DNA from: Apoderus coryli
Lineage: Eukaryota; Arthropoda; Insecta; Coleoptera; Attelabidae
DNA: 64,000 nucleotides
Assembly (NCBI GenBank): GCA_911728435.2
Contig: OU452203.1
Span: 15,397,651-15,461,650 of the forward strand
Direction: 5' to 3'
Shown: positions 21,701 to 64,000 of the stretch, in pieces
How the letters are laid out: every line of letters starts with the position of its first letter
Position numbering within the stretch: the stretch's first letter is position 1
Notes under the pieces: generated by a model
Databases searched by the model: none
The model's input: the letters and a program-made list of their open reading frames with translations, nothing else
What the model was told of the DNA's origin: nothing
Program-made: the position numbers and the translations under genes

Positions 21701-24700
21701 TTAAGAATATATTTTAGTATAACTAAACCGTTGATTTAATTTTTGCGAGAACCAATAACACCCCCCTTCACAATGTGTTAATAGTTATACATAACTTGAT
21801 CGCAGCAAAAATAAAATGGTGCCCTTGAGTAAAAGTGAGTATACAGCGCCGGTGAGGTGGGTTTTTAAAGGGCTCATTATAAGTGGCATGCGGAGAAATT
21901 AGAGATCAAGGAAGCTATAATAAAGTAATTAGAACATGTCGGGAAAATTTTGGGGCGACACAACCGATTTTTTGTTTATTTAGTGATATTATAATTTAAT
22001 TAATAATAATTGTAAAAGACTGTCGTATAGCCTTTATGTCTGAATATAGTATGTTTTAAAGACGTATTGGATATTGGCAAATATTTTATTTATGACTGAC
22101 TTTTTTATATTAACTGACATGACATTTTCTCCTATTCCAACAATAACAATGTAACAATACATTAACATACAGGGACTAAACTATTATTATTAACTAAATA
22201 TTTAACATTTCTTCCACCACTCGACAATATCAATTGTCCATATCAATCCGACATAACTTTGCTACTGGCCGACGGAATATGCCTGATGCTGTCTTCAAAT
22301 CTACAACTCTGACTTTTCCGTCAGGACCGGGAAAAAGAGTCAATACCTTCGCAAGTTTCCACGATTTCCGTGGAGCACTTTCGTCAACCACTACCACAAT
22401 GTCTCCTTCGTTAATTGGTTTGCCATCTTTATTCCATTTCGATCGTCTGTTCAAGGTCGGTAAATAGTCTTTAGTCCATCGTTTCCAAAATGATTCTACT
22501 AAATTTTGGGACTTCCTCCATTCTTTTCTTAGATCAGTAGTAAGTGGACCATAATAATTTAAATTATTCGAAGTTCCTCGAAGAAAATGGTTAGGCGTTA
22601 GTGACTCTAAATCATCAGGATCTCCGGAAACTTTCGTTAATGGTCGTGAATTTATAATGTTCTCAACCTCAGCGAATAAGGTAAGTAATAACTCATCTTT
22701 TAAAACTTGTCCATGTAACACGTTCTTTAGAGATGATTTTACTGAACGAATTAATCTCTCCCACACTCCGGCCATATGAGGTGCACCTGCAGGCAAAAAT
22801 TTCCAATCTATATGAGAGTTTAACAATACTTGTCTCATTTTTTCCTGGTCTAAATTGTTTAAAGCTTGTCTTAATTCTTCAGTTCCTCCTCGAAAATTCG
22901 TGCCGTTATCGGAGTAAATCACCCGGGGCTGAATTCTTCTTGACGCCATTCTTCTCACAGCCATTATAGCCGAATCAGCCGTTAACGAATGAGCAACTTC
23001 TAAATGTACGGCTCTTACAGTTAAGCATGTAAATAGTACACCCCATCTTTTTTCACGTCGTCTTCCGACTGATACATACATAGGTCCGAAATAATCGACA
23101 CCGCAGTAAGTGAACGGCTGGATATTCGGTGTAAGTCTAACTGCAGGAAGTTGACCCATTTCAGGATGTTCTGGTTTCGCTTTTGCAACTCGACATTTCT
23201 GACACTTTTTAAAGGCGGCTTTTACTGCTACGCGTCCTTTCAAAATCCAAAATCTCTGCCTAACTTCATTTAAAACTGTTTCAATCCCTTGGTGATTATA
23301 GTCATCGTGATATTTTTGCAGTAAAAGTTGCGTATATCTATGTTTAGGTGCCAAAATTAATGGTCGTTTTGTAATTTGTACGTTGTTGGGTGCAAGATCA
23401 ATCCTTCCTCTTATTTTAAGTAGTCCGTCACTGTCTAATATCGGTGATAATGCTTTTAGTGCACTATTGGGCTTTAACATTTTATTATTGGTCAGAATTT
23501 CTATATCTTCATGAAACGAATCCCACTGACATTGCTTAACCCATTTTAATTCTGCTTCTTGTACATCCGCTGTTGTCAATTCTTTAGGAACGTTCTTATT
23601 TTTAAATTTCTTAGATATCAAAATTCTGGCATATTTAAATACGTAAGCTGTGGCTCTTATTAAGCGTGACCATTTTGAAAATCTAGAAATGTCAGGTAAA
23701 TGAGAGCTAGAATTTTGAAGTTTACAATTCTGAACTGTTAAAAGCTGAACTTCATTATTTGCTTCACCTTCTATTAAATTTTTACCAAAGTTTTTAGAAG
23801 GCCATACGTTTTTATCCGTTGATAACAAAAATTCTGGACCAGCATACCATTTCTTAAAATCTGTCATAATGTTGTGATCTTTGTCATGAACCCTTGTTGC
23901 GAGATCAGCTGCGTTTTGAGATGAAGGAACCCAGTGCCAGTCGGATGAATCGGTAAGTTCTTGGATTTCACCAATGCGATGTGCTTCAAACTGTCCTAAT
24001 TTTCGTCCATCGCCTTTTATCCAATATAATACAGTTGTCGAATCCGTCCACATATAAAGTTTGTTAATTTTAATTTCTAAAGTATTCCAGACAGTAGTTT
24101 TTAAACGACTTCCCATCAACGCTGCTTGTAACTCCAAACGAGGTATCGAAATTGGTTTTGTAGGCGCTACACGAGCTTTTGCCATAATTAAAGCAACATC
24201 AACATTGTCATTTCTACCTACAACTCTTAAATATGCAACACTAGCAAATGCTTGTTTACTAGCGTCACAAAATATGTGTAGTTCTATTTGTTTAGCGGTA
24301 GGGATCTGTTCACAGTAACATCTTGGTATTTTTAGTTCAGATACTTGTCGAAGATCGTTCAACCAGATTGTCCACTCTCTAAATAATTCGACATCAATAG
24401 AATCATCCCATCCTATTCCGCTACGCCATATATCCTGTATAAATATTCTTCCCTGTATTGTTAAATTTACTACTAGACCAAGTGGATCAAAAACAGCCAT
24501 AACAAATCTCAAAACTTGACGTTTGGTAGGTCGACAATCTTGAGTAAATTCAATACAGTCCATCTTTACTTTAAAACAAATGATGTCAATCTTAGAATCC
24601 CAAAATAGACCGAGTACGCGTTGAATTGAATAATCACTATTACATAAATCCTTACAAAATTCATCGTTTTCCGATAATGATTTCATGACGTTTTCGGAGT

Positions 24701-27700
24701 TTGAAATCCAACCAACCAGGTCAAAACCACCCAATTTCTGAATTCTTTTAACTTCAATTATTCTTCTTAAAGCAGCTTCTTCATCATCTGTACAGTCGAG
24801 GTAATCGTCAACATAATGCTTCTTAGTAATAGCATTTATAATTTCAGGATCTTCTGTATGATCATAGGCATTCAAATTTTTAATGTACTGGGCGCATGTT
24901 GGCGAACATGAAGCTCCAAATATCATAGACTGCATCTCATATGTTTCGTAATTATCCTTGATGTTATTTCGCCAAAGAAATCGTAGTGAGCTTCTATCTT
25001 CTTTTTGAATTCCAACACGAAGAAACATGTCTCTGATATCTGCACAAAATGCTATTTTTCTCTGTCGGAACTTCATTAAAACTTCCACCAAGGGCTGTAA
25101 AAGATCTGGTCCTGCTAATAGGTTATCATTCAAGCTGGTACCATTTGACTTGGAAGCGGCATCAAAAACTAACCTCACTTTATTGGGTTTATTAATATTG
25201 ACAACTGGAAAATGTGGTAAATACCAGCACCTTGGTCCTTCTATTTTTGCTTCTTCCTTTAACAGTTTTCGTGCATATCCTTGACTGACGTAACTTTGAA
25301 TTTTGTCACTGTATTTTTCTCGTAAACTACAGTCTTTAAGTACTCTCCTTTCAATGCAATTTAATCTTCTAATGGCCGTTGTTTTACTTTCTGGTAGGTG
25401 AATGTTGTCTGCTTTCCAAAGAAGTCCAATTTCATATTTCTGTCCAGCATACTTCGCAGTTCTTTTCATAATTTCAGTAGCTCGAATTTCGTCAGTTGTC
25501 GTTTTAATTTTCTCAGGTAATATTCCAAAAGCATCACATGAGAATGACTGCTTAACTAATTGATGAAGTTCTTCGTCCGATTTGTGAACGTCGCATACGT
25601 GAAATGAATAGAATTGTTTCGTATGTGCTTTAGTATCCTGGTTTCCATGCATAATGTAACCTAAATTTGTTTTTGTGGCAATAGGTGAATTTTCAGGACC
25701 CTGTATAACTTTACGAGCGACAGTAAGGTGTATATTATCTTGCCCCAATAGGATCATTGGCCTCTCATTAATTTCTGAAAATGGGATGTCTCTCAAGTAT
25801 GGATACGCTTTCCAGTCTTCCTCTGTTATAATTTGTAAAGGCATAGATAAATTATTAACAGTTCTAACATTCTTCAAGGTAAACAATTTAGCATTTGGAA
25901 AATCTCCAGATATTTGTAAATCTAAGCAAATTGATTTTTCATGTTCTGATACGAAATTATTTGTCCACTGAAGGCATAACGTTTCAGATTTTCCCTGCAA
26001 GTGTAGCTTATCAGTTATAGATCTATCTATTAATGTTACTGTAGAAGCTTCATCACAAATTGCTACTGTTTCTACAAATTTTCGATCTTCTCCATAAATC
26101 TTCACTTTAACCATTCTTAGTAACACATTTTTGGAACCACTGCCTGTAGCTAGCACATTTTCTGAAGACGTACTAGGAATTTCCCCATTGTTCTGTTCTC
26201 TTCTGACTTCATATGTTTGGTTTTCAGTGTGAAGTAACTTATTATGCATACGACGACAACCATCTACATTACAGGAACGTTTTAATCTACAATTTCCGGT
26301 TCTGTGTTTGCTTCTGAGGCAGGAGAAACACAACTTCTTTTTACTAACAATTTCCCATCTAGTCTTTATGTCATCGTTTGTTAATTTTCTACAATCCCTA
26401 ATCTTGTGGCCTTTACCATCACAATAAGGACAAATTAAGTCTTCAATATCACTTGTAATAAAACTGGATTCATATGGCTTGATTTTTTGAGGTCTTTGTA
26501 TGTCAAACTTAGGTGTACTCACATAGCATGCCGATTTAGCAATGTCGACAATAAAATCAGCGAAAATGCTTAGATCAACTTTTTCACAACATCTTCTTAT
26601 TTCTTCACCCCAACGAAGCTTCAGAGTGTCCGGAATTTTGTGAACCAAACATTCTAATACTTCCGGATTTTTCAGATGTTCGGGTTGACCCAAAGATTTA
26701 ATGGTCGCTGTCAGAGAACTTACATGGCTTGAAAAATTTATTAACAACTCAAGTTGATACTCTTTAATTTGTGGATAGGTCTTTATTTTGGAAATTAATT
26801 TCTTGATAATGATATCTGAACGTCCGAAACGCATTTTCAATGTGTCTATAACTAGATCAACATTTTGCGGAGACAACATCATTCCCGAAACTGCAAGTTT
26901 GGCTTGACCTTTTAAACATTTTTGCAACTTAACTATTTTTTCTTCATTAGAATAATCGCACATAGCTGATATTCTGTTAAACTGACTGATGAAAACTGGC
27001 CACTCTTCAGGATTTCCGTCAAAGTATGGAAAGTCGCGTTCGACTACTTGTCTTGTGATAAATTTGTCGTTTATTTTTTGATCAGCGGTGTTTGAAATTG
27101 TATTAAAAGCTTTTGAAATGGAATCACACAGTACCTTTATGTCTGAATTTTCAATTTCTCTGGACTTAGACAGGTTTCCTTCGTTCGAATTCAGTTCTTC
27201 AACCCACTTACTAGTTTTCTGAATAGATGTTACGCTCTCTATATCATCAATTAGATTGTGAGTACATACTGATGAATCAATATCACTGTTGTCGGCTAAT
27301 TCTTCAATTTCATTTTGCATTTCCAAGATTTTGAGTTGATCTTGTAATTTCTGGGCTTCCATTTTACTTTCTATTTTCTGAATTTCGATTTTCTGAATTT
27401 CGATTTTTTGACGTAACTTCTCGCCTTCTAAAGCTTTTTGTCGTCTTCGTAATTCACTACTTTTTACTGACTGCTTGGAATTACCTTTAGATATTGCTTT
27501 ACTATGTGTCTTTTTTGATGACGTGAGATCAGTATTATTATGAACTTCAGCAACAGTTTGCATTAGAGGAAAACCATGAAATGAAGATATAGAACTGACT
27601 GGCTTACTTTTCTCCTGTCTGGAGGATTCTAATATCTTCGCATCTGATGGTTCTATGTTATCCATTTTCACAAACTTGTCTGTTGTTAACAATTTTTGTA

Positions 27701-30700
27701 ATTTTACTATTTCTCCAGAGGACTCGGTTGTTAGCTCGAATGGACCAATGTAAAAGACTGTCGTATAGCCTTTATGTCTGAATATAGTATGTTTTAAAGA
27801 CGTATTGGATATTGGCAAATATTTTATTTATGACTGACTTTTTTATATTAACTGACATGACATTTTCTCCTATTCCAACAATAACAATGTAACAATACAT
27901 TAACATACAGGGACTAAACTATTATTATTAACTAAATATTTAACAATAATATTCATAGTGTTTATATATTACTTATACACGAGTATGCAAAACAAAATCT
28001 AGAGAATTTTATTTATCTCCTTGATTTCTATCTATCGAAATCTTTTCAGAGGCAAAGAGCAATTGTATTAAGATAAGTGATAATTATCAAAAGGATAAAT
28101 CGCCCTACGTTTGGATTCAGGTATGGTGGAATTTAAACACTACTGCTCGAATTTTTTGATTTTGATAAACGTTCTCAAATGAATAAACAGTTTCAGATGT
28201 CGATTTTTTAAGTCAGTGTTGTCCGTGAATTTGAACTATTGCTAATTTTGGTTCACCTGAAGAAGGGTGTTTATCTTTCTTAGATTTTTAATATAGGTTG
28301 CCTTCAATGATTTTATACGAGGTATAGCTACAAAATAACGATGCTTATATATGGTAGAAGACTCATAGCTATGCAGCGTGAGCCTGGCCCTAGTATGCAT
28401 GTTATACAAAGGCCATGCCTGTTGAAATTGCACATAAAACGCTACTGGAATTTAATTTTATTAAAATTATGTATAGTAGCAACAAATATCTATTACATAC
28501 GTGTTTTAAGTGGTTTGAGCGTTTCCAAGATGATCAAGAAGGTATTGAAGCTCATTCACGCCCAGGTCGTCCTTTCCCGTCAAAAAGGGATGGAAATATT
28601 CATAATGTGACGTTTATCTATTTCCCAAGGTCAATTCCGTATTAAAATAGTCTCGTTATTTTATAACCACACCTCGTATATCCTAATTTGTGAGAAACAA
28701 AATAATTTGTTAAATGAGCCTGATTGATATTTTAGTATCACATTTCCCGAAAATGAAAAAGAAAAAAGTATCATTGAAGGAGAGCAATCTAGAAGTAATT
28801 CCAGAAACCTGTGATGAAAAACTAATTAGCGATAAAACGAAATCTATTTCGCGAATTCCAATACTTCAAAATAGCATAAGGAAACAATTTAATCACAAAT
28901 CTATTAGTATCAGTGATATAGCAACTGTGCAAAACCGTGAAATAAAAGTTTATGATTGCCAAACAACCGTTACTAATAATTTAATAGAACAATTGGAATT
29001 ACCGAACATACCAGACAATAATGAAGTCCTTAAAGACTTATTCATGAAAACTAACACTCCACCTACTGTGGTAAAGAACAGTGACAACAAATTGAGCAGA
29101 AATAAAATTAAATTAAAACTCTGTAAAAAAACATTGAAACCAGTTTGTTTTGCCGATAAAATTCGATCAAAGCGTGTTAAAAAACCTATTGATATTCATC
29201 GGGAACAAGTTAAGGTTGAACCAAAAGTATTAGAAACTAAAACTGAAAATGTAGAGCCAGTTAAACTAAATTGTGATGATGAAAAGTTAACAGAATCACC
29301 AACAATCGTTTATAAGAATAATCGGTTTTCGAAACCCCGTAAATCAAAAACGAGTTTTGCAACTGCCCAATCGTCTATTCAAGAGGTGTTTCCAACGAAT
29401 CCTATGTCAACCATTAAGCAAGTTAGTAAAAAGACTTCTGGTTCATCTGTGGAAATACGAGTGATTGAGAAAAGTAGTAAACATAATGGTGTTACTTGTC
29501 AAAAAATTCATTTCAAGTCTTCATTGAATCTGGTGACAATATCGTCAAAAACTTGTATTGCTTCGATGACTGGTAGGTGTCGCTCGATTAATACGAGAAG
29601 AAGTGTTACGGCTTCTACTGTTAACGTCCATGGTTTATCACATACAAGGTAGGTGAGCAGTTTGTCGTTGTTTAATTTAAAGATTACTGGAAGTGCATCG
29701 CTGATAAATTGGAAAGGTAACGAGCATTTTGGGGTTATAGGGGCGTGGGTATGCAGAAAGGAATTAGATTTCTTCTCTTCGATAAAAGAACTTTACCTTT
29801 TTCCTCAAGTTATCTAATCATTGTGCCTATGATTATTAGATGATTGCATAATCAAGAATGATTACTGTTCAAGGTTCATACTTTTTGGGTTCATGATTAT
29901 ACTTTCTGTTAAAATGTATCATTTGTATTGCAGTCCGAGACGACAACAGTATGCTTGTTACAATTAAATAATAGGTCTACGAGCTCGTTTAGAAACTTTC
30001 TTATAAGACAGGAAAAAGATTCAGTCATTGTAAAACTTCTGTAAAAAAGGGTGGTGAAAGGGAACTTATCGAACCAGAACCTGCAATTAACATAGCGCTT
30101 AGCATACATACTCGTACTTAATCCTGGATAACGACAAAAGGTTATAACTTATGGCAAGACCATCCAGGTTGGATACATTTGAATTTAAGGGCCAGACAGT
30201 TGGATATGAGTTGATCTCGCCTGGTGGGAACAAGCAGGGGTCATCATCTCTCAAAGTAGGTCCTTTCGAACAATTCTGAATGCCGCTTGTGCCTGATGAT
30301 GTGACGACGGAACATGTGTCGTTTTTATAGACTAGATTTTCGGTGAAATATCACTTCCAACAGCAAGTCTAAAAGAAAACTCACCCAGCAAAATAATCGA
30401 CTTAATTCATTCAAGAAGATTGAGCTGTTGGATGAAATATGAATAGGTTTGAGCCAGAATAGACCCTTGTGTGGTCATTTTGAACGTACCTACCCATAGT
30501 TGTATTGAAATTGTAAAAACCCTTTCCAATTTATTATAGGAAATTTGATAAATGTATGAGATGGTGCATCTATTAGAATTTATTTTGGGTAATAATTTAC
30601 AGTAATTTTTATAACTCACCGTTTATCACTGTTGTACAAAAGGACCTGTTCACCAACAAACAGACTGCAACACATGAAACCAAAAGTGGCATTTGACAAT

Positions 30701-33700
30701 CATACGTCAGCTAGCATATTAAAATGTCGTGTACCGCCACATAGGAAGAAAAAGTTGTTGTATGTTGAAAAATTTCCGTCTATAATAGAAAATAACAGCA
30801 GAGACGTTATGTCGATGTCGGTGGATGAAAGCATGGCGAATGAAGTGTACCACAAAGTGAACGAGTGGATTTCGTCGCATGATTTCCGTGCATTGGGTGA
30901 TGGTCATCGCAAAGATATTGAAGGTGATACGGTAGTGACAAACGATATTTGCACTGATATAACTTCAGGTACAATTAGCTAGCATTCGAATAGATAGATG
31001 AGTAGAATTAAGAGGAGAGGTTTCGACAGTCTTGAAGTGATTAGGTTTAAACAGTTTTAGTGTAAACTATTTGTATTCTTAAGTTACACAGGCTATGGTG
31101 AAACAGAAAAAAGGTGAATATGATGATATAAAAATTGAAGAACGAACAGATGTGATACGTTGTGAATCAACGTCGTCTGTGGCGAATTTTTCCGAAATGA
31201 TACGTCAACTTAACCATGAGAATAAATTGGTGAAAACTTCATCGAAATTCACACATTACACACCATTTCTCACTACTCCTAACCTGAAATCCATGTCCGC
31301 ACCACCTGCTACATTTTCCGTTATTGTTGAAAATGAAGAAAATGTAATACAAATAAGAATTCTTTAGAGTTTTATGTTGATATTTGTTTATTTTTATTTG
31401 TACAATTTAGGAGTTACCAGAAGCTAATATCAAAAAGAGCGATATGTCATTTAAGACTGTGAAAAGTAGTTATCATAATGTGCAAGCAGTGGCAACACCA
31501 ATCATTCAACCATCACGACCGTCTAGTCGACATAAACGACATGCTGTTGATGTCATTACGCAGAAACCTAGTAGTATTGATAGGAAGATGCGTAAGCGAC
31601 GTACACTAGAGAAGGTGGGAACTATCGGGGTAAGTTTCAGCTGTCTATCTGTCGAGATTAGAAAAACGCCATTAAGTTTAGTAAGAAAATAGTATTTTTG
31701 AATATTTGCCATGGGCACTTTTTTTTTTAATTGACAATTCAGAGAAAATAATTTTTACAGATGTTTGGCTATTTTCTGAAAGTATTTTTGGAGACTTGTG
31801 TTGTGGCGTTTCTTCTATTTATATTTGATTTTGTAATCAGTCCAGAACAGTACGGGTATCAACATCGACTATTTATCAATAGCTATCTACCATTTTAAAG
31901 AATTATTGTCAAAAAATTAATAAATAAACTAAACAAGTATAAAAATAGTAAAGAGTTTATTTGCGTTTGTGTTTTTCTGTATTTGCTGGATTATCGAAGT
32001 TAGTTGACTAGCAAAATCTATTGCTAAATGTAAGCTGTAATAATCGTTTTATTTACTCCATGTAAAGGAAGAGCGTCGTAAAGTTCTTGAAGAGATCGCA
32101 ACAAATCGTTCGGATCGAATGAGCAAACGAAAGGAACAACGAAAACGCCAAACTGAACAATTCTTGAAAAGTATGCAAATGCTAGCAGCTAATGCTAAAC
32201 CAGATCATTCACAACCATTTGAAGACTATTCCATATTTCTCTATCGACAAACCGCTCCGAAATTTGAAGATAGAGTTAAAGATCTAGAAAAACAATTTAC
32301 ATATGTACCTGTAAGAACGCAATGTTACGTGTGTTGTGTTTTCGCTGTTGTTTTTCATCTATAACAATAACTAATGTTTCATGTTACTTTATTTTTAATA
32401 TACTAATTATTGAGAAGAGTATAATATATAGGTAAATTGCTGCGACCACATTTTAAAATGTGTTCTGAAGTCGAATGAGTATTTAAATCATTCAAGGAAC
32501 GCTTAGCATAGCAACAAGTTCTGGTTCTGGTTCAAAACACCCCAATCAGAGAAATCATTCCCTAACAAAATAAGAATATTTTGGTAATAAAATCAAGTCC
32601 AAACCTAAGGCTTTACACTCACGCGATAATCTACACTCATGGACATAAATATCGAATATTTCCAAATGTAAAAACACTTTGTACTAGGAAAACAGTTTAT
32701 TTTAAAATTCTTAATTGACGTTTTATGAAAGGAACATTGTGAAAACAAAAATGAAAAAGGAATGCTAAATGTGACAATTAGGTATATTTACATTGAACAA
32801 CTGTCAAAATATTTGCTAAAATTAGGAATATTCACATTGAACTTAGCTATCAAAATATTGGATAAAATTAGGAACATTCACATTGAACTTAACTATCAAA
32901 ATATTCGATAAAATTAGGAATATTCACATTGAACTTAACTATCAAAATATTCGATAAAATTCGGAATATTTACATACTTAACTATCAAAATATTGGATAA
33001 ACTTAGGAATATTTACAATGAATTTAGCTATCAAAATATTCGATAAAATTAGGAATATTTAGACTGAACTTAACTATCAAAATATTCGATAAAATTAGGA
33101 ATATTCACATTGAACTTAACTATCAAAATATTCGATAAAATTCGGAATATTTACATACTTAACTATCAAAATATTGGATAAACTTAGGAATATTTACAAT
33201 GAATTTAGCTATCAAAATATTCGATAAAATTAGGAATATTTAGACTGAACTTAACTCTCAAAATATTCGATAAAATTAGGAATATTCACATTGAACTTAA
33301 CTATCAAAATATTCGATAAAATTAGGAATATTCACATTGAACTTAACTATCAAAATATTCGATAAAATTCGGAATATTTACATACTTAACTATCAAAATA
33401 TTGGATAAACTTAGGAATATTTACAATGAATTTAGCTATCAAAATATTCGATAAAATTAGGAATATTTAGACTGAACTTAACTCTCAAAATATTCGATAA
33501 AATTAGGAATATTCACATTGAACTTAACTATCAAAATATTCGATAAAATTCGGAATATTTACATACTTAACTATCAAAATATTGGATAAACTTAGGAATA
33601 TTTACAATGAATTTAGCTATCAAAATATTCGATAAAATTAGGAATATTTACATACTTAACTATCAAAATATTGGATAAACTTAGGAATATTTACAATGAA

Positions 33701-36700
33701 TTTAGCTATCAAAATATTCGATAAAATTAGGAATATTTAGACTGAACTTAACTCTCAAAATATTCGATAAAATTAGGAATATTTACATGAACTTAACTAT
33801 CAAAATATTCGACCACTTTGCTAGATTGAAGAAGAATTTTAACGTCACAAATTGAGACTTTGATATTGAGGCACATTTGTAGAATCATTATTGTAGGTGC
33901 TTTGATCCTTTGATAGTAAAGGTCATTGATCAATTTTCAAACCAATAGTTCAGCGCTCTTTGTTCAGACCCTTAAGGCTCTGAATTTCCACGTTTTTAGA
34001 AATTATCAAGCGATGATAATAATTATTGCTTTAGTCCATTTATCTAATGCATTTAAGCCCTAAAAGCATATTAAGATATTACCGCTAAAATGCATTCAAT
34101 AAATTTTCTGTTTTATAGATTATCATTCTGATTAGGAAGAACCAGGCCAGCATTTAAAATATGGCATTAACTGTTACATAAAATTCGATCCCTTCGTGAA
34201 AGATGTGGATCCGTCCCTTTGGTTCTGGTCAAACATTATTTCCATGTGGTCGCATACTAAAGAAGCGCTCAAGTTTTACTTTATTTGTTTAGCATTATTT
34301 ATATAAACTATTAAACAATGTTTACTAATAATATTTGAACTATTCCCTGCTGCTAAAAATTAATATTTACCCTAACTGCACACTCTAGGATCATGAAAGC
34401 AAATTACCAAACATCACGCGGATGTCAGAAAAGGCTGATGAGGATATTGCAACAAAAATCAGACATCTAGAAAATAAGTGGACGAATCCTCAGCCGTACG
34501 AGAAAAAACCAAAAGATCTTAATAGGGCGATTGGAAAAATTGAAACTAGTGATTGGAATATTAAACAAATTGAAAAGAAAATTATGGAGAATAAAATGGG
34601 CAAACCATCATCAACAAATAAGGATAAGGAACGTGTACCGAAATGGAGTAAAGCTGAATTTATGGCGAAATTGACGAAAATGGAAAAGAAACATTTGGAT
34701 AGACAAGATAGCACCGAAGGTAACTATATAATTATAACTCAATGATTGTTTAATGATCTACGTATTATGTTTTTAGCGAAATACGCGGATATTGACAGAA
34801 ATATCAAACATCTAGAACTGAAATTGAAGGAAGGTACTACTAGAGACCTGGGTCAAAACAAAGTAGCAATTATAACAGAAAAATTGGTCAGTAAGGTACC
34901 AGAAAATCCGAAACCAGTTGAGAAACCGGTATGATAATATAACCTATAATACAAATATTTGTTGATAATATATACCTGTTTAATTTTTGTAGAATGATAA
35001 ACCACCAGTTAATTTGCCACTGCAAACAGCCTCCGAATTTTGCCATTTTTGCGGTAAAAAAGTGTACCTTATGGAGAAAGTATCAGCTGAAGGTAGATTT
35101 TTCCATAGGGGCTGTTTTAAGTACGTAAAAGTTTTACCGCATACACAATCCTGTAATTAATGATATATTGTTTCTTAAAGATGTCAGTACTGTCACACTC
35201 AACTACGTCTGGGATCATATTCCTTCGATAGAGATGGTCAATACGGTTTCAAATTCTTCTGCTTACATCATTTCGGTATGCAAGGCGAACTACCCCGTCC
35301 TACCACCAAAGTGCAACGAAGACAATCACAACGAGCGGCTAAAGGTGAAGATGTAAGGAGTCCAGTGAGAAGAGTGCCACAACATCCAGTTGTACTCGGG
35401 CTTGATCTAATGGACAGAGGTAACTTTTCTTGAATAAGCTAAAGCAAGCAGCCCAAGTAATTTTCAATACAACTTATTCTTTTGTTTAGTTCAAACTCCG
35501 GAACGAATAGAATTTTCAAATCCGTCCCCTGGTAATATTTCATCCGATCATGATGAACCGCTTAGTCCCATGGATGAGGACGAATGGACAGACAAAAATT
35601 TTGGAGCTTCATGTGCTGAACTTGATGATGACAGCGATGAGGATTCTTCTAGTTTAAGGTAACAATTGTTGACTATGAAACAAGTAACTCAATTTTAATG
35701 ATGATTTTTTAAAAATTAGCAGCGATACTGACAGTGATGATGAAGATGCATATGATGATGCCCTTGAAGAGCCCGTTACAAAAGAAGGTACAATGAAATG
35801 GGCAGAGCGGTGGAAGAATAGTTTTTCGCGGAAACATCGACGTTCTGATTCTGATGCGTACAGCAGCTCAGATCAGTTCAGTTATTATGAGAATAGCAGT
35901 GACGGTAAGTCAGGGTACATAACTAAACTAAAAATCTTTAAATGTCTTGGTTTCTCTTGCAGATGATGAAACGGATACAGCAACCGAGGGCGAAGAGGAA
36001 ATACGTGCTCGTGAATTACGCAAACAAGAATTTCGCGTCAAACCACCTATTCCACAAACTGACACGGGCACGGATACAGAGGTGAAGCTCTCATTCAATT
36101 TAACCCACAACGATTTGCCCGATATTTTACCTAAACCTTATGTAATCAGTTCCTTTGACAATCTTTCAGCTTGCTCGGGTGAATATAATAGCGCTGAATC
36201 TGAATTAGATCACAATCATCATCATATCATACATCAGATTCATAGTGATTCAAGAATAAACAATAATAATAACATGCCTGACATTGAACCTAAACAAAAC
36301 AGTGATACTCAAAAAATTAAAATTAGCACTAAATTACCTTTATCAAAAAGTTCCACAGCAGGAAATCTCGCACCTCCAAAACCCAAACGAAACTTCGTAA
36401 TACCTTCAAAAGAAGGTCGGAAAAGTATTGGAGATGAATTTATATCTAAATTCAAACCAGCTGAACCCGAACCTATCCTGGTTATAAAACGCACTCCAAG
36501 TAAAATTAATTTACCAAAGGAAGTCGGTAAACCTAAAGTAGCAGTTAATACAAAAATGTTAGATAACACAAAAAATTACTTTGGATTATCTCAATCGCCA
36601 AAGAAATCGCCGGTACTAAAACGCTCAGCTGCAAATCGCTCACCTTTAATCAAGCAAACTAGTTTACCCGAGACGAATGAAGAAATTAAGGAATGTAGTA

Positions 36701-39700
36701 CAATTAAACCGTTTAATTTTGAATTGGAAGACGAAGATCTTAATGATATTGATGATTATATTGAGACTTTGTTAAAACATGAAGATGAGTTGCAAAAACC
36801 GATAGATCTCAACAAGTTCTTGACTAAAGATGAAAGTGACGAAGATATATCTAGTAGTATTGAAGATCTGTTTAGTCAATTGGAAAAAGTTGATGAAGAG
36901 GAAAGTGTAAACGAAACTGATGATAAAATTGAAGATCTTCTGAAATTTATGGAAGAATTAGATCATAATGAACCACAAACGAAGTTAACAAGGTCGATGA
37001 GTGATGTGAAATATCAACATTTGGAAAAACTTTTAAAGAAGCCTGAACGTTCCAATTCAATTGTAAGCAAATTGCCAAAGGATAATATAAAATTCTTTGA
37101 AAACTATATATCAGGTAAAAATGATTTAGACAAAAACAAAGAAGAAAAACTATCTAGACCACGAACTGGGCTAAGTAGATCTAAAACGGAGGTACATTTC
37201 CAAAAGAAAATTGCACCCCGCACGTCAGTTGATTTAGATGAAGTTAATAGAGTTGATATCAAAGCAATGTTAAAAAAATTTGAATCATTTGATAATGGTG
37301 AAGCAGTGGAAGAAATAAAACCATCCTTAAATAAACGATTTTCGCTTGGTAGCAATATTGATAAAAAAATAACCAGAAAACCCGTGATAAGCGCCATTAA
37401 AAAATTTGAATCACCACCGATAGAGAATAAGAAACCCCCATTGCAACCGAAGAGAATAATATCACAAAAGTTCGAAGAAACTTCAGTTGAAGAAACTATC
37501 AAAGATCTCGAAAAATTCGTAGAAGATACTATTGAAAGTATTGGTTCTAGAAAACAGAGAAATCATGGAGAACTAGGTAAAAGCAAGAGTGATTGGTGTG
37601 TAAATATTACAGTGTCATCAAAAATTAATCCAGAATTTTTAAATGTCATGAGCAGAGATGAAGAACTTAGTGATGCAACTCAAATCGATGACGCAAGTGA
37701 TAAACCACACGATTTTTCCAAAATCGTAGCATCTAGTGATACATCTTTAACATCTGACAACGTTCTAGACGAGAGTTCAATCAGTTCTGAATATAAGAAG
37801 GAAGCACAGGAACCACATGATTTTGCTAAAGCTATATCAGATGACACATCATCGAGTGAAAGTGATATAACAGCAGAAGATAGTCAAGAAGAATCATCGG
37901 ATGATGAGGAAGAGATAGAAGACATTGAGAATGATGATGATACTACTACTTCAAGCGATGAGGACGATATTCAAAACGATTTTGACATAAATAGCACAAA
38001 AACAAATTTGATAAGTCAAGATGATGTAGTAGAAACTCAAATTACCAACAATGATAAACCCGACATTCGGCTACCAAAGGATGATGCAGAAGTTTCGAAC
38101 ACTAACAAAGCCGAAGAATCGAATTTAGTTGCAATCGCAGCGATTCAAACTACAGGCACTCTAGAACAACAGCCTGATGAATTAATTTTAGATGGATTAT
38201 CGGCAAAAGTTACTGAAAAGGGTGATGCTCCTTCATTTGAGAGTGTTTTAGAAAAAACAAGTACTGATAATAAAAATCATCCTCAAATTATTGTGGAACC
38301 TCAAGCTGCAGATGCCTTAAGCGATCTGTATGCTAAAGTTAAGAAACACCAGAGCTCTCAGCCAGTTGCTCCTGTACGTACTCGCAAGTTATCACATCCT
38401 GAATTTAAAAACAAACCATCTAATCAACAAATTTCTACTGAACAGCACAAACCAATTCCGCCTGAACGAAAACGTTGTGCTACTGTGTCCCCTCGTCCAT
38501 TAAAGAAGCAGATCGACCAAACTTCGAACTCTAAAAGTGTGTCCGTGAATAATTTGTCAACATCTCCAACAAAAAAAGTTGTTGAAAGTTATGAAACACC
38601 CGTACTACAAACTGTCGATGTCAAAGCCAGTTCGTTGGATAATTTGTTAAAATTTCCCCCGAAATTCGGACGGAAAGATAAGGATAAAGACTGCGTTATA
38701 CAGTAAATTAATTTTTTTGTACATAATTTTATTACCTACGTATAAATTAACGTGTGCGGGTAGAAATATTCACCTCGTATCGTAACCCGGATTGATGCGT
38801 AATTTTTTTTTGTTTGATTAATAATAACGAATTCATGATATGCATATTCACAAAACAGGGTGCAAATAATATGGTACCTGATGGGGTTTTAGTTGTTTAT
38901 TTTATTTTTGCCATTATTTACTTGCCCTTCTCCTTTATTGGTTGTGTCAACAATAACGTGTTAGCAATGGCGTGTGTTATAGTTTGAAAGGTAATTTATA
39001 TATTGTTGTGTCTGTTCTAAGAGCGTTTTGAGTGAGTTTTTTTTTATTTATTTTTGTTTATCGATGTTTAATAATATTAATACAATTTTTGTTGCAATAA
39101 CCCATTGCTAACGTGAGTGTTGTTGCGTTTTATTTAGTTTCTTTTTTTCTGTTTAATTTGTGTACTAATTTATATTATTTCAAACCAAACACGATTTTAC
39201 ACAAATTTTATGAAAAAACTAGTGGTGAAAGACGGAAACTGATTCTTCGATGCAATTTTTTGAAATTGGTTTAATTTTTAAATTATATACGTGAATCTAA
39301 AAACTTGTAATTAACAGCGACCTTCAGTTTATTATTCAATATTAAGTTGGTGTAACTCAGTTTAGACTTCAACTGTTTTTGAAAAAAAAAATCATTTTTA
39401 ATTTTTTCATCCAAAACAAGTCTCTGGGAAATATTCGCCATTTCGTTACCTGGATAGACAGACTCTTGTAATTTTGATGGTAGTTGAAGAGTGTCTTAGA
39501 AAAATCAACTAGCTTGACAGATTCGTCCATAAGGATACAGGGTGGTCGTAAACTACTGTAGTGTGCTCTACTAATAAAATTAGGCATCAGTCAAGTTTAC
39601 ACCCTTTCTCCTTTATATTATCTAATATTCTGAAAGACAATAACATAATATGTCCCTAAATGGTTAGATCTTTTTAACGGAAATTTTATTGTCTTGCAGA

Positions 39701-42700
39701 ACATTAGATAATATACAGGGCTTTCATTTTGAGAAAATTGACTTATGACTATTTTTATTAGTAGATCACACTACAGTAGTTTGCGACCATCCTGTAACCT
39801 TCTAGGAGAATCTGTCGAGATAATTGATTTTTATATGATATTCTTGAACTGCCATCAAAATTCCGAGAGTATGTATATTCAGGTGACAAAATGACGAATA
39901 TTATTCGGAGACCTCTTTTGAGGCAAAAACATTCAAAATAAATGTTTTATTCAAAAACAGTTGGAGATCGGTATAGGGAAGTGTTCAGACAAAATACTCC
40001 AAAACAGATAAGGAATTCAAAAATATAATTACCTACAGGTTGAAATAAGAAAGTTATAACCGCACAAATATCACAATATAAAGAATGATAGATTGGATTA
40101 ACTTGAGTATGTCCTTAAATTTTCAAAACAATCTTATGCGTTTGAGGTACCATCAACCGTGAAACACCCTGTATAAAGTAGTCAAAATTCATATGAAGGT
40201 TCTAGAAAAATATGACATTTTTAAAGTATGTGTATAAGTTCAATATCACTAATTTAATTTGATGTTTGTCTATGAGGCTCGATTATTTTAACAAACTCCA
40301 CCAACGAATCGTTAAAAAGACGTTCACATAACAAGCGCGTGAAGCTGCAGTGAAACCGGGAACTTAAATCGAACTGACTTTTTCGAAATACGCTCTGGAA
40401 ACAACATTTTCTAGAAAAATAAATAAGTCAAGATATTTTTTGGATCAATTTATTCGCGGAAAATTCCTTTTCCTAGAAAATAGCACCAAATCCCTCAAAT
40501 TAATCCTCAATTGGCATAGCTTTGATTATTCGATAATACTTATTACTTTTGTCAGTAGCGACGTTTAAATTCGCTTCTATTAATACCCTAAAATTTCAGT
40601 ATTATTTTGAAAGCATAGGCTTGAGTCATTTTTACGGCAATGGTCTTAAAATATGCTTATTACACTATACTGCAGATATCTTCATAAGACATTCTTTATA
40701 GAAAAAGTGGTGCGCTTTTTTTATTTAACAATTAACCAATTTGTGATTTGTTTTTTTTTTTTTTTTATTTACGTTGACTATCTTGCCAATTTAAAAATAT
40801 TTTTAGCTTCCACGAAATATAAATGCAGTATATTTAAAAAATAGTATTGAGAAAAAGTTTTTTTCTTAGGTACATTGAGTTGTCGGAAATATACTGCATG
40901 TATGTTTCCTCTATAACTAATTCAGTTTTTGTGTTCAATTTCAAGAGTGTATTTATTTTTTAATTGCAGATTCTATCAGATGAAACGTCATCTGAATCGT
41001 CAAGTAGCCGAATTCAAAATTCGGCTACAGAAATATCCACAGATTCGGAATTCGCGCAAGATGATCCCACACCTACTAGAGAAATTCCTTCAATTGTATT
41101 TAATGATGTATTTGTGACGAAAACCCGTGGTAGTGGATATCCAAGAAAAATACAGGTTAGAATATTCATGAATAGAATACCTCTTCAAGTTTGTTGCATT
41201 TTGAAATTATTTTTATTTTAGGTAAAGACCGGCTACATTGAGAACCCTCAAAACGGTAAAACAACCTCAACTAAACAACCAGATATTCAATTAAAGCTCG
41301 ATCCTTTAGTACCAAATACCAATACACTGATCACAAGTAAAAAACCATCACTTATTCTACCACATGAAGGTTATGCATTGAATCGCACACAAAGCACTGG
41401 GGGTATTGCGGCTAAGGTTTCATTAGAATTAAAAAAGAAATATCTATTAGGTGAAACAACGCCAGGTAATATACAGAAATCTGGTAGTGCCTCAACGTTG
41501 GACACGAAATTCCGATCATTCCAATCCACGATATCTGATTGTCAGAAACTGTTAAAACCCGCTCCGGAAATTAGTGCAAGCATGCAAGTGTTTTGTAACA
41601 AGTTAAATGAGCGTCACTCGCCAATAGTTGCGTCGCAACCGCTACCAACAGAAGAACCAAAAAATTTACCACCACCTGATATCACTATCACGACAATTAT
41701 ATCTGACGCCAAAGATGCGAACAATCAAATTGAAGATGATACTCGTCCGCGTAGTCCTATACATGAAGCATCAATACCAGTACCGAAAATAGACTGGTCC
41801 AAAAATCAATCGTCAGATGACAGTTTGTCTATGTCAAGTTCAAGTGAAAATATTGCACAAAACCCTATAGTAGAAATTACAGAAGACATAGCACTAGATT
41901 CATTAAATGTTATTGAAGATTCAGCACAAATTTCTAAATCAATTAATAGCGAGAAAAAATCGTTAAATCAACCGAAACAGTTACCGAATCTCGAAAGTGT
42001 TTTACCAGAAATCCACAAAGCTTTACACGTGAAAATTATCAGCGATAAAGAAGATTCACCGGAAAATGAAATAAAATCACTTAGAGCGCTTAGTGACCGT
42101 AGCTCGCCCGAAATAACAGCTGCATTAACAGAAACGGAATTATCAGATTGGGCGCGGGATGGTAACGTTTCTGACAATATCGAATTTGATTTTAGTCAGG
42201 GATCAGATAAAGCACCACTTGCAAAAGATATTGAGGATTTTAAAGAAACCAAAGAAGTGAAAAATAGGAATATTGCAGTTACTAGTAATATATTAACAAG
42301 TAATTTAGATAGTATTGAATTTATGGATACTGGTACCGAAGATACCAGTAGTGATGATGGCATTGTAGACAGTCAAAATGGTTATGTACTCTTCCAAAAT
42401 GAAGACCAAGATAGCTTAGAGCCAGAAGCTAAAGATAATAAAATATCAGCCCAAGAAACTATAAGCAAGTTTGGTGGAGAAGTAATTGATATAAAACCAA
42501 ACGATTTAGAAAAATTGAGGCAGAAACAAAACGCTACAGATCACGAAGAAGATAGTTTACTAATTTTGGACAACACGGGTACAACAACAGAAGAAAACAC
42601 TTGTAGTGATTCCACAGTAAAAAATATCACAGAAATCGTAACAGATAAGCGAGAAATTAAAATTGAAACCTTACAAAAACAGCGATTAGAAGACAAATTG

Positions 42701-59548: not shown

Positions 59549-62500
59549 ATGTTTCGTAGAAAACGTTCAGTAAATAAAAAAAAATTAGAACATAAATTAT
59601 ATTTGGTATGTACTTAATAACACAATTTTATTTCACAACACAACTTCTTTATTATTTTACAGGCCAGGGAAACTCCAGAACCAATTTTCGACTTGTCTGA
59701 ATGCGATTTAATTAATGTTCCCACAGGGATTTATTCATTATGCAAAGTTTTCTTAAAAACTTCCATAATTTTATGTAAAAATCAACTAGCATCTTTGTCG
59801 GGTGGAGGAGATCTCAGAGATCTACACTTGTTAAAAATTTTAGATATTAGTTACAACAATTTCAGTTCGTTACCGATAGAAATAGGTCTTCTAGTTCATT
59901 TAGAGGTAAATCTTATTTCCCTCTGTTAAAAAGTACCTACGTTACTAATGTTAATTTTAGGAACTGTATGCTAACAACAACTGTTTGAAAAAACTACCTC
60001 AAAGTCTGTCTAATCTAGTCAATTTGCAAATGTTATTTCTATCGAATAATTTGTTAAAAACACTACCAGAAAACATTGGAGAACTGGCCAATTTAACTTT
60101 ATTAAACATATGTGATAATAAACATTTAAGACATTTACCAAGGAGCATCCATAAGGCACAAAAGTTGATAGATATTGTTATGGATAGCGATAATTTTTTA
60201 TATCCGCCATCAGAAGTTTGTAAAACTGGCACAGAAAGTATTATGCGATTTATTTGTGCAGGTGAGTGAACTCTAGTATAAACAAAATATAATTTGCTTC
60301 AAGTTGTTTTTGGCAACGTCTAGTGTGAGCAGGCAATATTGCCAACCCTAGTATTGCCTGCTCACACTAGATGTCGTCAAAAACATTTTGTTGTATTTCA
60401 ACTCTCGTGCTAGTATAAGCTCTTTGTAAATGTTGGAAATTTGCGTTTCACTGCCTGCCGATCACCACTGATGAGTTGTGGATTAACGAAACGGCCCGTC
60501 TGGTGAATGCAGGGTGGTGTGAACCAAATTTCCAATATAACTAAAAGTCTTGTTACTTTATGTAACAAGCAATTCACAAATATAATTTGTTTATCAGTGT
60601 TACCTGTTATAAAGCGGTTTTGTGACACCCGACAAATTTGATTTTAGATATCAACGTGGAATATGTTTCTGGAACAGATGCGTCTGAAGTGAAAGCGGAC
60701 AGTGATATTAAAGAGATTCCAGATGAAACTGATTTCTATCAGGTTACATTAATTGTTCATTTCAACTGTAGGTATGAGCCTCGGTATACATCTTATTAAC
60801 ATAGGTACTCTCAGAGGTGTCGTCAGTCTGATATTTCCCAAATCAAATCTTGTCTGGAGGAAATTCATAGGTCACTCAATTTTGACTTACGTACACTTTC
60901 AGACTAGACCATTACAACCGTGAAATAAAATAATTACCACCCACACCGAGGCTCTACTTTATTTTTGTAATTTTCAGTTAACATTTAGACTTCATTATAT
61001 TATAATTTTTTAGGGCAAAATATGGGAGCTAGACAAATTAAAGGCATGTTCAGTAATATTCCTAACGCTTCTTATATATCATTATTACTTACACAGCTTT
61101 TATATTATATTATTTGTTGCTAATCATCTCATATTTGTCGTTTGGATTATTTAGATAGTTTTGCATTATACTAAAATATATTTTATAAAACTTGTAGCAA
61201 CAAAAAATCCAAGAATTTTTAGAAATTGAGAAAAATAATGAACTGTTACAAAGACAGGAGTTCGAAATGGCAAATGCTCAAAAGGAAAATCGTAAAAAGG
61301 TAAATATCTAGTAATTTTATAATATTTATATACATTAAAAACAAATAATGTTGTGGTATATTCGACAAAATTACTGGATTTAGCTAAAAATAACATGGGC
61401 CATGGGCTCGTCAGTATACCATAGCTATACCCTAATACAAAGATTGATATGCCTGTATGCATTAGGAATATGTCTACCAGCGGAGTTATGGACATATAGG
61501 TACACTCCCTTACAACATACATCTCAGCGCAGACAAATCTATAAATACAATGCCAGCCGCAATGTTAACAAGGCAGGAAAATAATGCAAATATAAACAGA
61601 ACGCTAAAAGGCTTGATGCTCTATTAATTTAAACAAAATCATCTGCTTAGGTAAAACCAGTAGTTTTGTCCAACAATCCAAAAAATTATTTCTAATTAAA
61701 TTATTTACAAACGTAACTTCTTTTTATGTTATTTTTGTTGGTACTTTCAAGTTATTGGCAGATATATCAAGGCAACAAAGTAAATTAGATTTAGAACTTA
61801 GTAAAATACAACAATTGAAAGAGTTGGACCGGTTTAAATTGATTGAACAATTACAAGAAGGTAAATATGATACATTTACATATTAAATAATTAGGTGAGG
61901 ATGTGTGGAAGAAACCTGGTTCGAATCTTGTTATAACTTAGATGAGCAGCAGTCTATCTCCGAAACGATGAGACGAGATTTCGTGCTGCAGCCATGTTTG
62001 AAACTGGGAATGGCCAGTGTAATGAATTTAAATTTGAAAGAGTTTCTTTGAGTAACAAACTTCAAGAAGGAAGGCGAACTTCTGCACTTACTGATAAAAA
62101 AACACTGTTTCTGCTGCTCGACAGCTGATTTAGGAGGAGAACGGGGTCCCCCACATAATTATTTGTTTGTTCTTTGGGGATAAGAATGACTGTAATTCTT
62201 CACAATCATCTTGGAGTCATAAGGTTGTTTATTGTCGTTGCCAAAAGACTGTTAATATGATTACTAAAGTAAATCAGAATCTAAACGTCCGTCGAACTCA
62301 TTGCGTGTTTCCAACTACAATGTCGACGGAGTAACATTGTACAGCGCACCAACATAACAGTATCTTTATTTTAGAGGAAAATAACGCTGACATCGCTATC
62401 AATAAATTGTTGAATCTAAGTAAAGAACCACAAAACGACTTATTACAAATAGAAAAATTAGAAGAGGCAAAATTAGTTGCCGCTGTTCACAAATATAATG

Positions 62501-63619: not shown

Positions 63620-63960
63620 GCTTTTATTCATTGAGTGAATATGTAGATTGTTCAATGCGTGCTTGATTCTGTAATGTAATTTTATAATATGTATGTCTTT
63701 TATACAATTCTGTTTTTATATGTAATTTGCTTAAAATCTTGACGTATTCTATGTACCTTTGCTGTACCCACTCTCGAACGAACATAAGAATTGTACAACA
63801 CAAGTGCAAAATTATCGTTGGGACTTCCACAATTTCTCACAATAAAACCGTACATTCTCATAGCGTCACTGGCCTTAGCATTTATATGCGGTACGAAAGA
63901 AAATTTTGAGTCAAACACAACTCCCAAATCAGTAGTAGAGGAACACCTATCAAGGAAAGT
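63620..63960 (-). pseudogene. LINE reverse-transcriptase relic at the window edge
   Basis: The minus strand reads TDLGVVFDSKFSFVPHINA, KASDAMRMYGFIVRNCGS and NDNFALVLYNSYVRSRV. This is the segment just after the reverse-transcriptase core of jockey/CR1-like LINEs. Frameshifts and stops follow. The 5' part would lie beyond 64000. Confidence 0.75.
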
Positions 63961-64000
63961 CTGACAAACTGTATATCGAAAATCTATATTTTTCTTTCTT

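Follow-up and report, generated by a model that had tools for sequence, protein, structure and literature searches.

An earlier note on this DNA of the beetle Apoderus coryli placed a complete type I hammerhead ribozyme in an intron of LRSAM1, which raises the question of whether the motif is real, how it came to lie inside a gene and what it may do to the transcript. The window analysed here is the whole stretch of 64,000 nucleotides (64 kb) that contains the locus.

Nine exons joined from the window, with the start ATG at 59549, gave a gene model of 475 aa that LRSAM1 proteins match along the full query. Among the 120 listed of 186 matches, the best identities were 60% (an unnamed record), 59% (Ceutorhynchus) and 57% (Tribolium madens). 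The best 53 of the 186 have 45–60% identity; a species is given in all but six of them, and judging by the names we take all of these to be beetles. Lower-ranked listed matches include at least two more beetles; cockroaches, a termite, a damselfly, a locust, bees, wasps, sawflies and ants appear there at 39–45%. A search for PDB molecules named LRSAM1 found none among the first 60 of 242 rows, which were mostly leucine-rich repeat proteins. The introns of the model measure 51, 55, 57, 154, 271, 386, 452 and 514 nt, and splice sites and protein search together confirm that the hammerhead lies in the 386-nt intron in the sense orientation, as had been claimed. The splice donor following 60742 (GTTACA) is weak, and so is that of a 30-nt exon of the model at 61014–61043, which has a GC donor. 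Elsewhere in the window, a single open frame of 1865 aa (22230–27827, minus strand) has the look of a BEL/Pao-type LTR retrotransposon polyprotein. A tandem array of about 23 copies of a 46-bp unit (88% matches) occupies 32776–33812. Near the LRSAM1 exons, an open frame at 63700–63999 on the minus strand looks by eye like a portion of a LINE reverse transcriptase; it had no Pfam match at E 0.001.

The features of the locus are collected in Table 1. A base-by-base check of 60462–60506 found every element of the conserved core in place (CUGANGA, G10.1-C11.1, GAA, A15.1-U16.1 and H17), together with the cleavage triplet GUC, in which C17 is 60500. The inner part of stem I, UCACCA/UGGUGA (60462–60467/60501–60506), is Watson-Crick at six of six pairs. 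Stem II has three pairs (60475–60477/60485–60487, including G10.1-C11.1), or four when a G-U is counted, and stem III has 3 bp (60491–60493/60497–60499, including A15.1-U16.1). Stems II and III are closed by loops while stem I is open at both ends, which is the type I layout; this arrangement differs from the minimum-energy fold. Stem III and its loop form a self-complementary stretch interrupted only by one central C-C, with a computed duplex energy of -10.2 kcal/mol. Beyond the inner stem I, an internal loop (CGA/AU) faces the 7-nt loop II. Stem I had been described as three co-linear helices of 6, 5 and about 16 bp. The 6-bp helix and the 5-bp helix (60454–60458/60509–60513, outside the internal loop) were both found, and the outer helix has 14 uninterrupted pairs at its base (60430–60443/60525–60538, one of them G-U); in the minimum-energy fold, however, a rival register pairs 60449–60456 with 60512–60519 and replaces the 5-bp helix. 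About 12 further outer pairs form in that fold besides the 14 basal ones, and stem I with its extension comes to about 30 bp in total. The description of a complete type I hammerhead thus stands at every conserved position, and an end-to-end Rfam alignment (below) agrees with it. We regard the motif as almost certainly genuine on the strength of its sequence.

Table 1. Coordinates of the features at the LRSAM1 locus (positions in the window)
Feature	Position	Strand	Basis
LRSAM1 exon 5' of the hammerhead intron (third exon of the model)	59961..60261	+	reading frame, splice sites, protein search
LRSAM1 intron with hammerhead, 386 nt, GTGAGT...TTTTAG	60262..60647	+	splice sites
Left copy of 15-bp direct repeat (putative target-site duplication)	60285..60299	+	repeat search, shuffles, controls
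Putative retrozyme-like insertion, 278 nt, 41% GC	60300..60577	+	between direct-repeat copies
Hairpin 1, arms 39 nt, 87% complementary	60300..60390	+	repeat search, folding
Weak small hairpin	60391..60418	+	block folded alone; absent in whole-intron fold
Hammerhead hairpin (hairpin 2): extended stem I, ribozyme at tip	60430..60538	+	folding
Type I hammerhead ribozyme (predicted)	60462..60506	+	full-length match to Rfam RF00163, descriptor search
Core CUGAUGA (C3-A9)	60468..60474	+	base-by-base check
Stem II GUU/AAC and loop II GUGGAUU	60475..60487	+	base-by-base check
Core GAA (G12-A14)	60488..60490	+	base-by-base check
Stem III ACG/CGU and loop GCC	60491..60499	+	base-by-base check, duplex calculation
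Predicted cleavage site, after C17	60500..60501	+	hammerhead model
Hairpin 3, 8-bp stem, UUUAU loop	60549..60569	+	folding
Right copy of 15-bp direct repeat (14/15 identical)	60578..60592	+	repeat search
LRSAM1 exon 3' of the hammerhead intron	60648..60742	+	reading frame, protein search

The context of the motif, overlooked by the earlier note, suggests a mobile origin. An AT-rich 15-bp direct repeat, AAATATAATTTG[C/T]TT, with one mismatch between its copies, encloses a block of 278 nt that folds into three main hairpins, the second of which carries the hammerhead; hairpin 1 starts at the first base past the left copy. Of 1500 shuffled flank pairs, 1 reached 14/15 identity, as did 8 of 4000 window controls free of tandem repeats, including 1 of the 1067 AT-matched ones among them; with tandem repeats kept in the controls the count was 19 of 1481. 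The repeat is a putative duplication, its status being a statistical inference from such frequencies and not a comparison with an empty site. It may also be read as a tandem unit of slightly more than one turn of a circle, which would fit a retrozyme as well. Removing the block and one copy of the repeat leaves an intron of 93 nt, which comes closer to the three shortest introns of the model (51, 55 and 57 nt); the other four besides this intron are 154–514 nt long, and 386 nt is thus not odd in itself. On this evidence the block and its repeat probably arose by target-primed reverse transcription.

Animal non-LTR retrozymes, as described in PMC7229834, are units of 150–450 bp that contain a type I hammerhead and have less than 50% GC; they are multicopy and mostly in tandem. 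Insects are among their carriers, and their target-site duplications, when present, exceed 4 bp. The block agrees in size, GC content and ribozyme type, and its repeat, at 15 bp with 14 identical, agrees in length, which leads us to a retrozyme-like reading. Against this reading stands the absence from the 64-kb window of a second hammerhead or a second copy of the block, metazoan retrozymes being multicopy and usually tandem. Apart from the query itself and the opposite arm of the same hairpin, blastn searches of the window with hairpin 1, hairpin 2 and the intron gave nothing better than short, weak matches, the best at E 0.02, and no second hammerhead site was found in the window with one core mismatch allowed. 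Patterns built on the hammerhead with its own stem I, or on hairpin 1, had 0 matches in the viral contigs and 0 in the genome contigs, collections that are not insect genomes and therefore say little. No LTR-like direct repeat was found within 60000–61000, a point of agreement with animal retrozymes; that the 3' end of the block has, by eye, no LINE-like tail counts against the reading. A tRNA-derived SINE origin was dropped, as an ARAGORN scan of the window detected no tRNA.

We also considered whether two or three hairpins of the MITE or microRNA kind were inserted independently into the intron, one of them tipped with a hammerhead, the 15-bp repeat being a coincidence. Hairpins 1 and 2 do fold separately and strongly, and 12 inverted-repeat pairs (at least 22 nt, within 200 nt) occur in the window, hairpin 1 included. 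However, no clear duplication is seen by eye immediately beside either hairpin, and the repeat that is rare in controls encloses both together, so that we consider independent insertions doubtful. Hairpin 1 looks like a microRNA precursor or MITE and matched no Rfam family at gathering score; MIR7502 on this hairpin was rejected at 33.5 bits against a gathering score of 71. Also rejected were mir-181 (19.4 bits against 45.5), the RAGATH-1 hammerhead (18.9 against 56.3) and weak matches to Plastid-ycf3, snR39 and SNORD31. Strand asymmetry of G-U pairs was examined as a mark of selection at the RNA level. In the minimum-energy folds the plus strand has 6 such pairs against 2 on the other strand for hairpin 1, and 9 against 2 for hairpin 2. 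Alignment of the arms gave G-U against A-C counts of 3 to 1 and 2 to 0, respectively, and the same count in control inverted repeats gave 12 to 5 for a long one at 39376–39956 (arms of 223 nt, 77% complementary, enclosing a further inverted repeat) and 0–1 to 0–1 for each of five shorter ones. The asymmetry was dropped as uninformative.

We return to a solitary retrozyme-like non-LTR insertion that carried the hammerhead into the LRSAM1 intron, which the sequence makes the likely explanation. The element would have been a small retrozyme-type non-LTR retroelement, non-autonomous and about 278 nt long, with three main hairpins, one bearing the type I hammerhead. During its mobile phase, by analogy with published retrozymes, the role of the hammerhead would have been to cleave multimeric transcripts into units. 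Target-primed reverse transcription would have placed one unit in sense in a short LRSAM1 intron and produced the 15-bp target-site duplication, and at present the solitary copy would be transcribed as part of the intron. Should the hammerhead fold, a cut between 60500 and 60501 would leave a cyclic phosphate and a 5'-OH. With the extended stem I clamping the two halves and a competing rod, most of the intron RNA is probably spliced normally.

The competing rod became apparent on folding. The 103-nt stretch delimited by the earlier note folds with a z score of -5.66, and 0 of 200 shuffles were as good, but the fold is not the hammerhead. With all four parameter sets the tip prefers a rod formed by GAUG/CGUC and GUUGU/ACGGC pairs. 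With dangles 2 and a 4-pair stem II, the rod is favoured by 9.3 (Turner 2004), 7.2 (Turner 1999), 6.3 (Andronescu) and 4.6 (Langdon) kcal/mol; with dangles 3 the advantage is 4.3–8.3 kcal/mol, and with a 3-pair stem II it is 5.5–11.3 kcal/mol across the same eight settings. Folding of prefixes places the rod as already formed once 60504 has been transcribed. As controls we used 27 viral loci obtained with a general hammerhead pattern, 26 of them with regular stems. The gap between folds was 0–2.8 kcal/mol in 26 of the 27, many of which are near-identical and few independent, with stems II and III of 4 bp that are stronger than those of the beetle motif. The locus left out of this range, L016, has a gap of 26.3 kcal/mol with a stem I of 3 bp and a stem II of 2 bp, and is likely a chance match. 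Nearest-neighbour models omit the tertiary contacts that stabilise hammerheads, and with the rod favoured under such models, slow or conditional cleavage is a fair expectation. Whether self-cleavage would be detectable in vitro is evenly balanced. Since the cut halves would stay paired through the extension of stem I, cleavage need not sever the pre-mRNA. In other type I hammerheads, a self-complementary stem III is linked to dimeric cleavage in the accounts of PMC3088659 and PMC6155905.

These folds bear on the proposal that the hammerhead has been domesticated, cleavage of the pre-mRNA tuning the splicing of LRSAM1. The intact core and the sense orientation inside the intron agree with it, as does the precedent of intron hammerheads in RECK (mammals and birds) and in C10orf118 (mammals), for which such a role has been proposed and which PMC3088659 reports to be conserved and to cleave in vitro. 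The direct repeat, which suggests insertion, and the rod that competes with the hammerhead argue against it. We consider domestication unlikely, and a regulatory role in LRSAM1 slightly more so. More speculative still is a retrozyme turned into a two-state intron element that would alternate between a silent rod and a cutting hammerhead. Its stem I of about 30 bp would act as a clamp and yield a nicked intron whose exons could still be joined, and the near-palindromic stem III would also permit cutting between two transcripts. We think such an element very improbable.

We also compared the motif with Rfam. Hammerhead_1 (RF00163) is matched at model positions 1–45 of 45 with 28.1 bits, at E 9.6e-6 when 61 nt were searched against all families and at E 1.7e-5 with a 111-nt query. 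A window-wide search at gathering scores gave no match, the 28.1 bits lying below the score of 34, which is a curators' cut-off and no structural feature. Hammerhead_1 was also missing from a 1-kb E-value search, probably through the action of filters. The proposed covariance check therefore gave a mixed answer, a full-length alignment with either query and no gathering match. The lack of a match above threshold had been named as grounds for refutation; formally this is what was found, and the rule is too strict, since one viral-contig hammerhead with clean 4-bp stems scores 28.5 bits and falls short likewise. For that reason a sub-threshold score alone is no argument against the beetle motif.

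A chance match had been called very unlikely. A strict descriptor (exact core, stem I at least 5, stem II at least 3, stem III at least 3) found 1 match on both strands of the window and 0 in 300 dinucleotide shuffles, while the loosest descriptor averaged 0.08 matches per shuffle. In a stricter version, Markov simulation gave 2.9e-4 per 64 kb (35 simulated cases), or 5.8e-5 (7 simulated cases) with stem I entirely Watson-Crick, the outer helix being left out of both. These values amount to about 2.3 and 0.5 per Gb of strand, so that in a large genome the motif alone is expected to turn up by chance; the claim holds for the window, at about 3e-4, and the outer stem I helix lowers the probability much further. 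That the hammerhead is a chance match on the tip of an ordinary hairpin would suit the favoured fold, a plain rod, and the fact that the motif was the selected best case of the earlier note. It suits poorly a core intact at every position, a wholly Watson-Crick stem I and an Rfam score equal to that of the viral-contig hammerhead, and we give it very little credence. Least credible of all is a fragment of a Penelope-like element: such elements do carry type I hammerheads, described in PMC7761336 as minimal and without stem III or loop contacts, whereas here a 3-bp stem III can form in the model, and among the listed ORFs of at least 110 aa in the window or at least 60 aa in 50–64 kb we noticed by eye no Penelope-like coding trace and no frame of an element with reverse transcriptase and GIY-YIG domains.

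If the preferred reading, a solitary retrozyme-like insertion, is true, a single copy with an apparent target-site duplication, lying on the sense strand of a gene, would show how retrozymes land in genes. Intronic hammerheads like those retained in other animals could have begun in this way, and the locus offers a clean test case for the effect of a clamped hammerhead on splicing. Among the papers listed by our searches of the open-access (PMC) literature on hammerheads, LRSAM1 and beetles, no report of this locus appeared.

Among known systems, the metazoan non-LTR retrozymes of coral, mussel and axolotl, as presented in PMC7229834, resemble the beetle block in the type I hammerhead, a length of a few hundred bp, less than 50% GC, highly self-paired RNA, a repeat longer than 4 bp and, for 60000–61000, freedom from LTR-like repeats. 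The beetle block differs in being single in the window, in its long stem I and in a hammerhead that is not the favoured fold. Penelope-like element hammerheads share the type I class and the link to retroelements, but according to PMC7761336 and PMC11167929 they are minimal, in contrast to the stem III and long stem I found here. Amniotes are known to have hammerheads within introns (PMC3088659, PMC6155905). Those of RECK and C10orf118 are, like the beetle motif, type I and in sense in a spliceosomal intron; they are described as conserved and active (PMC3088659), whereas the beetle motif is known here from the sequence of one species. The satellite pDo500 of the cricket Dolichopoda (PMC2837043) also comes from an insect, and an extended stem I was proposed for its hammerhead, so that the long stem I, rightly called unusual in the earlier note, has a proposed precedent. 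The account of pDo500 is of an abundant satellite with repeats of about 500 bp, as opposed to the solitary intronic copy in the beetle window. The beetle motif belongs to a known kind, and its solitary, intronic and long-stemmed form is unusual.
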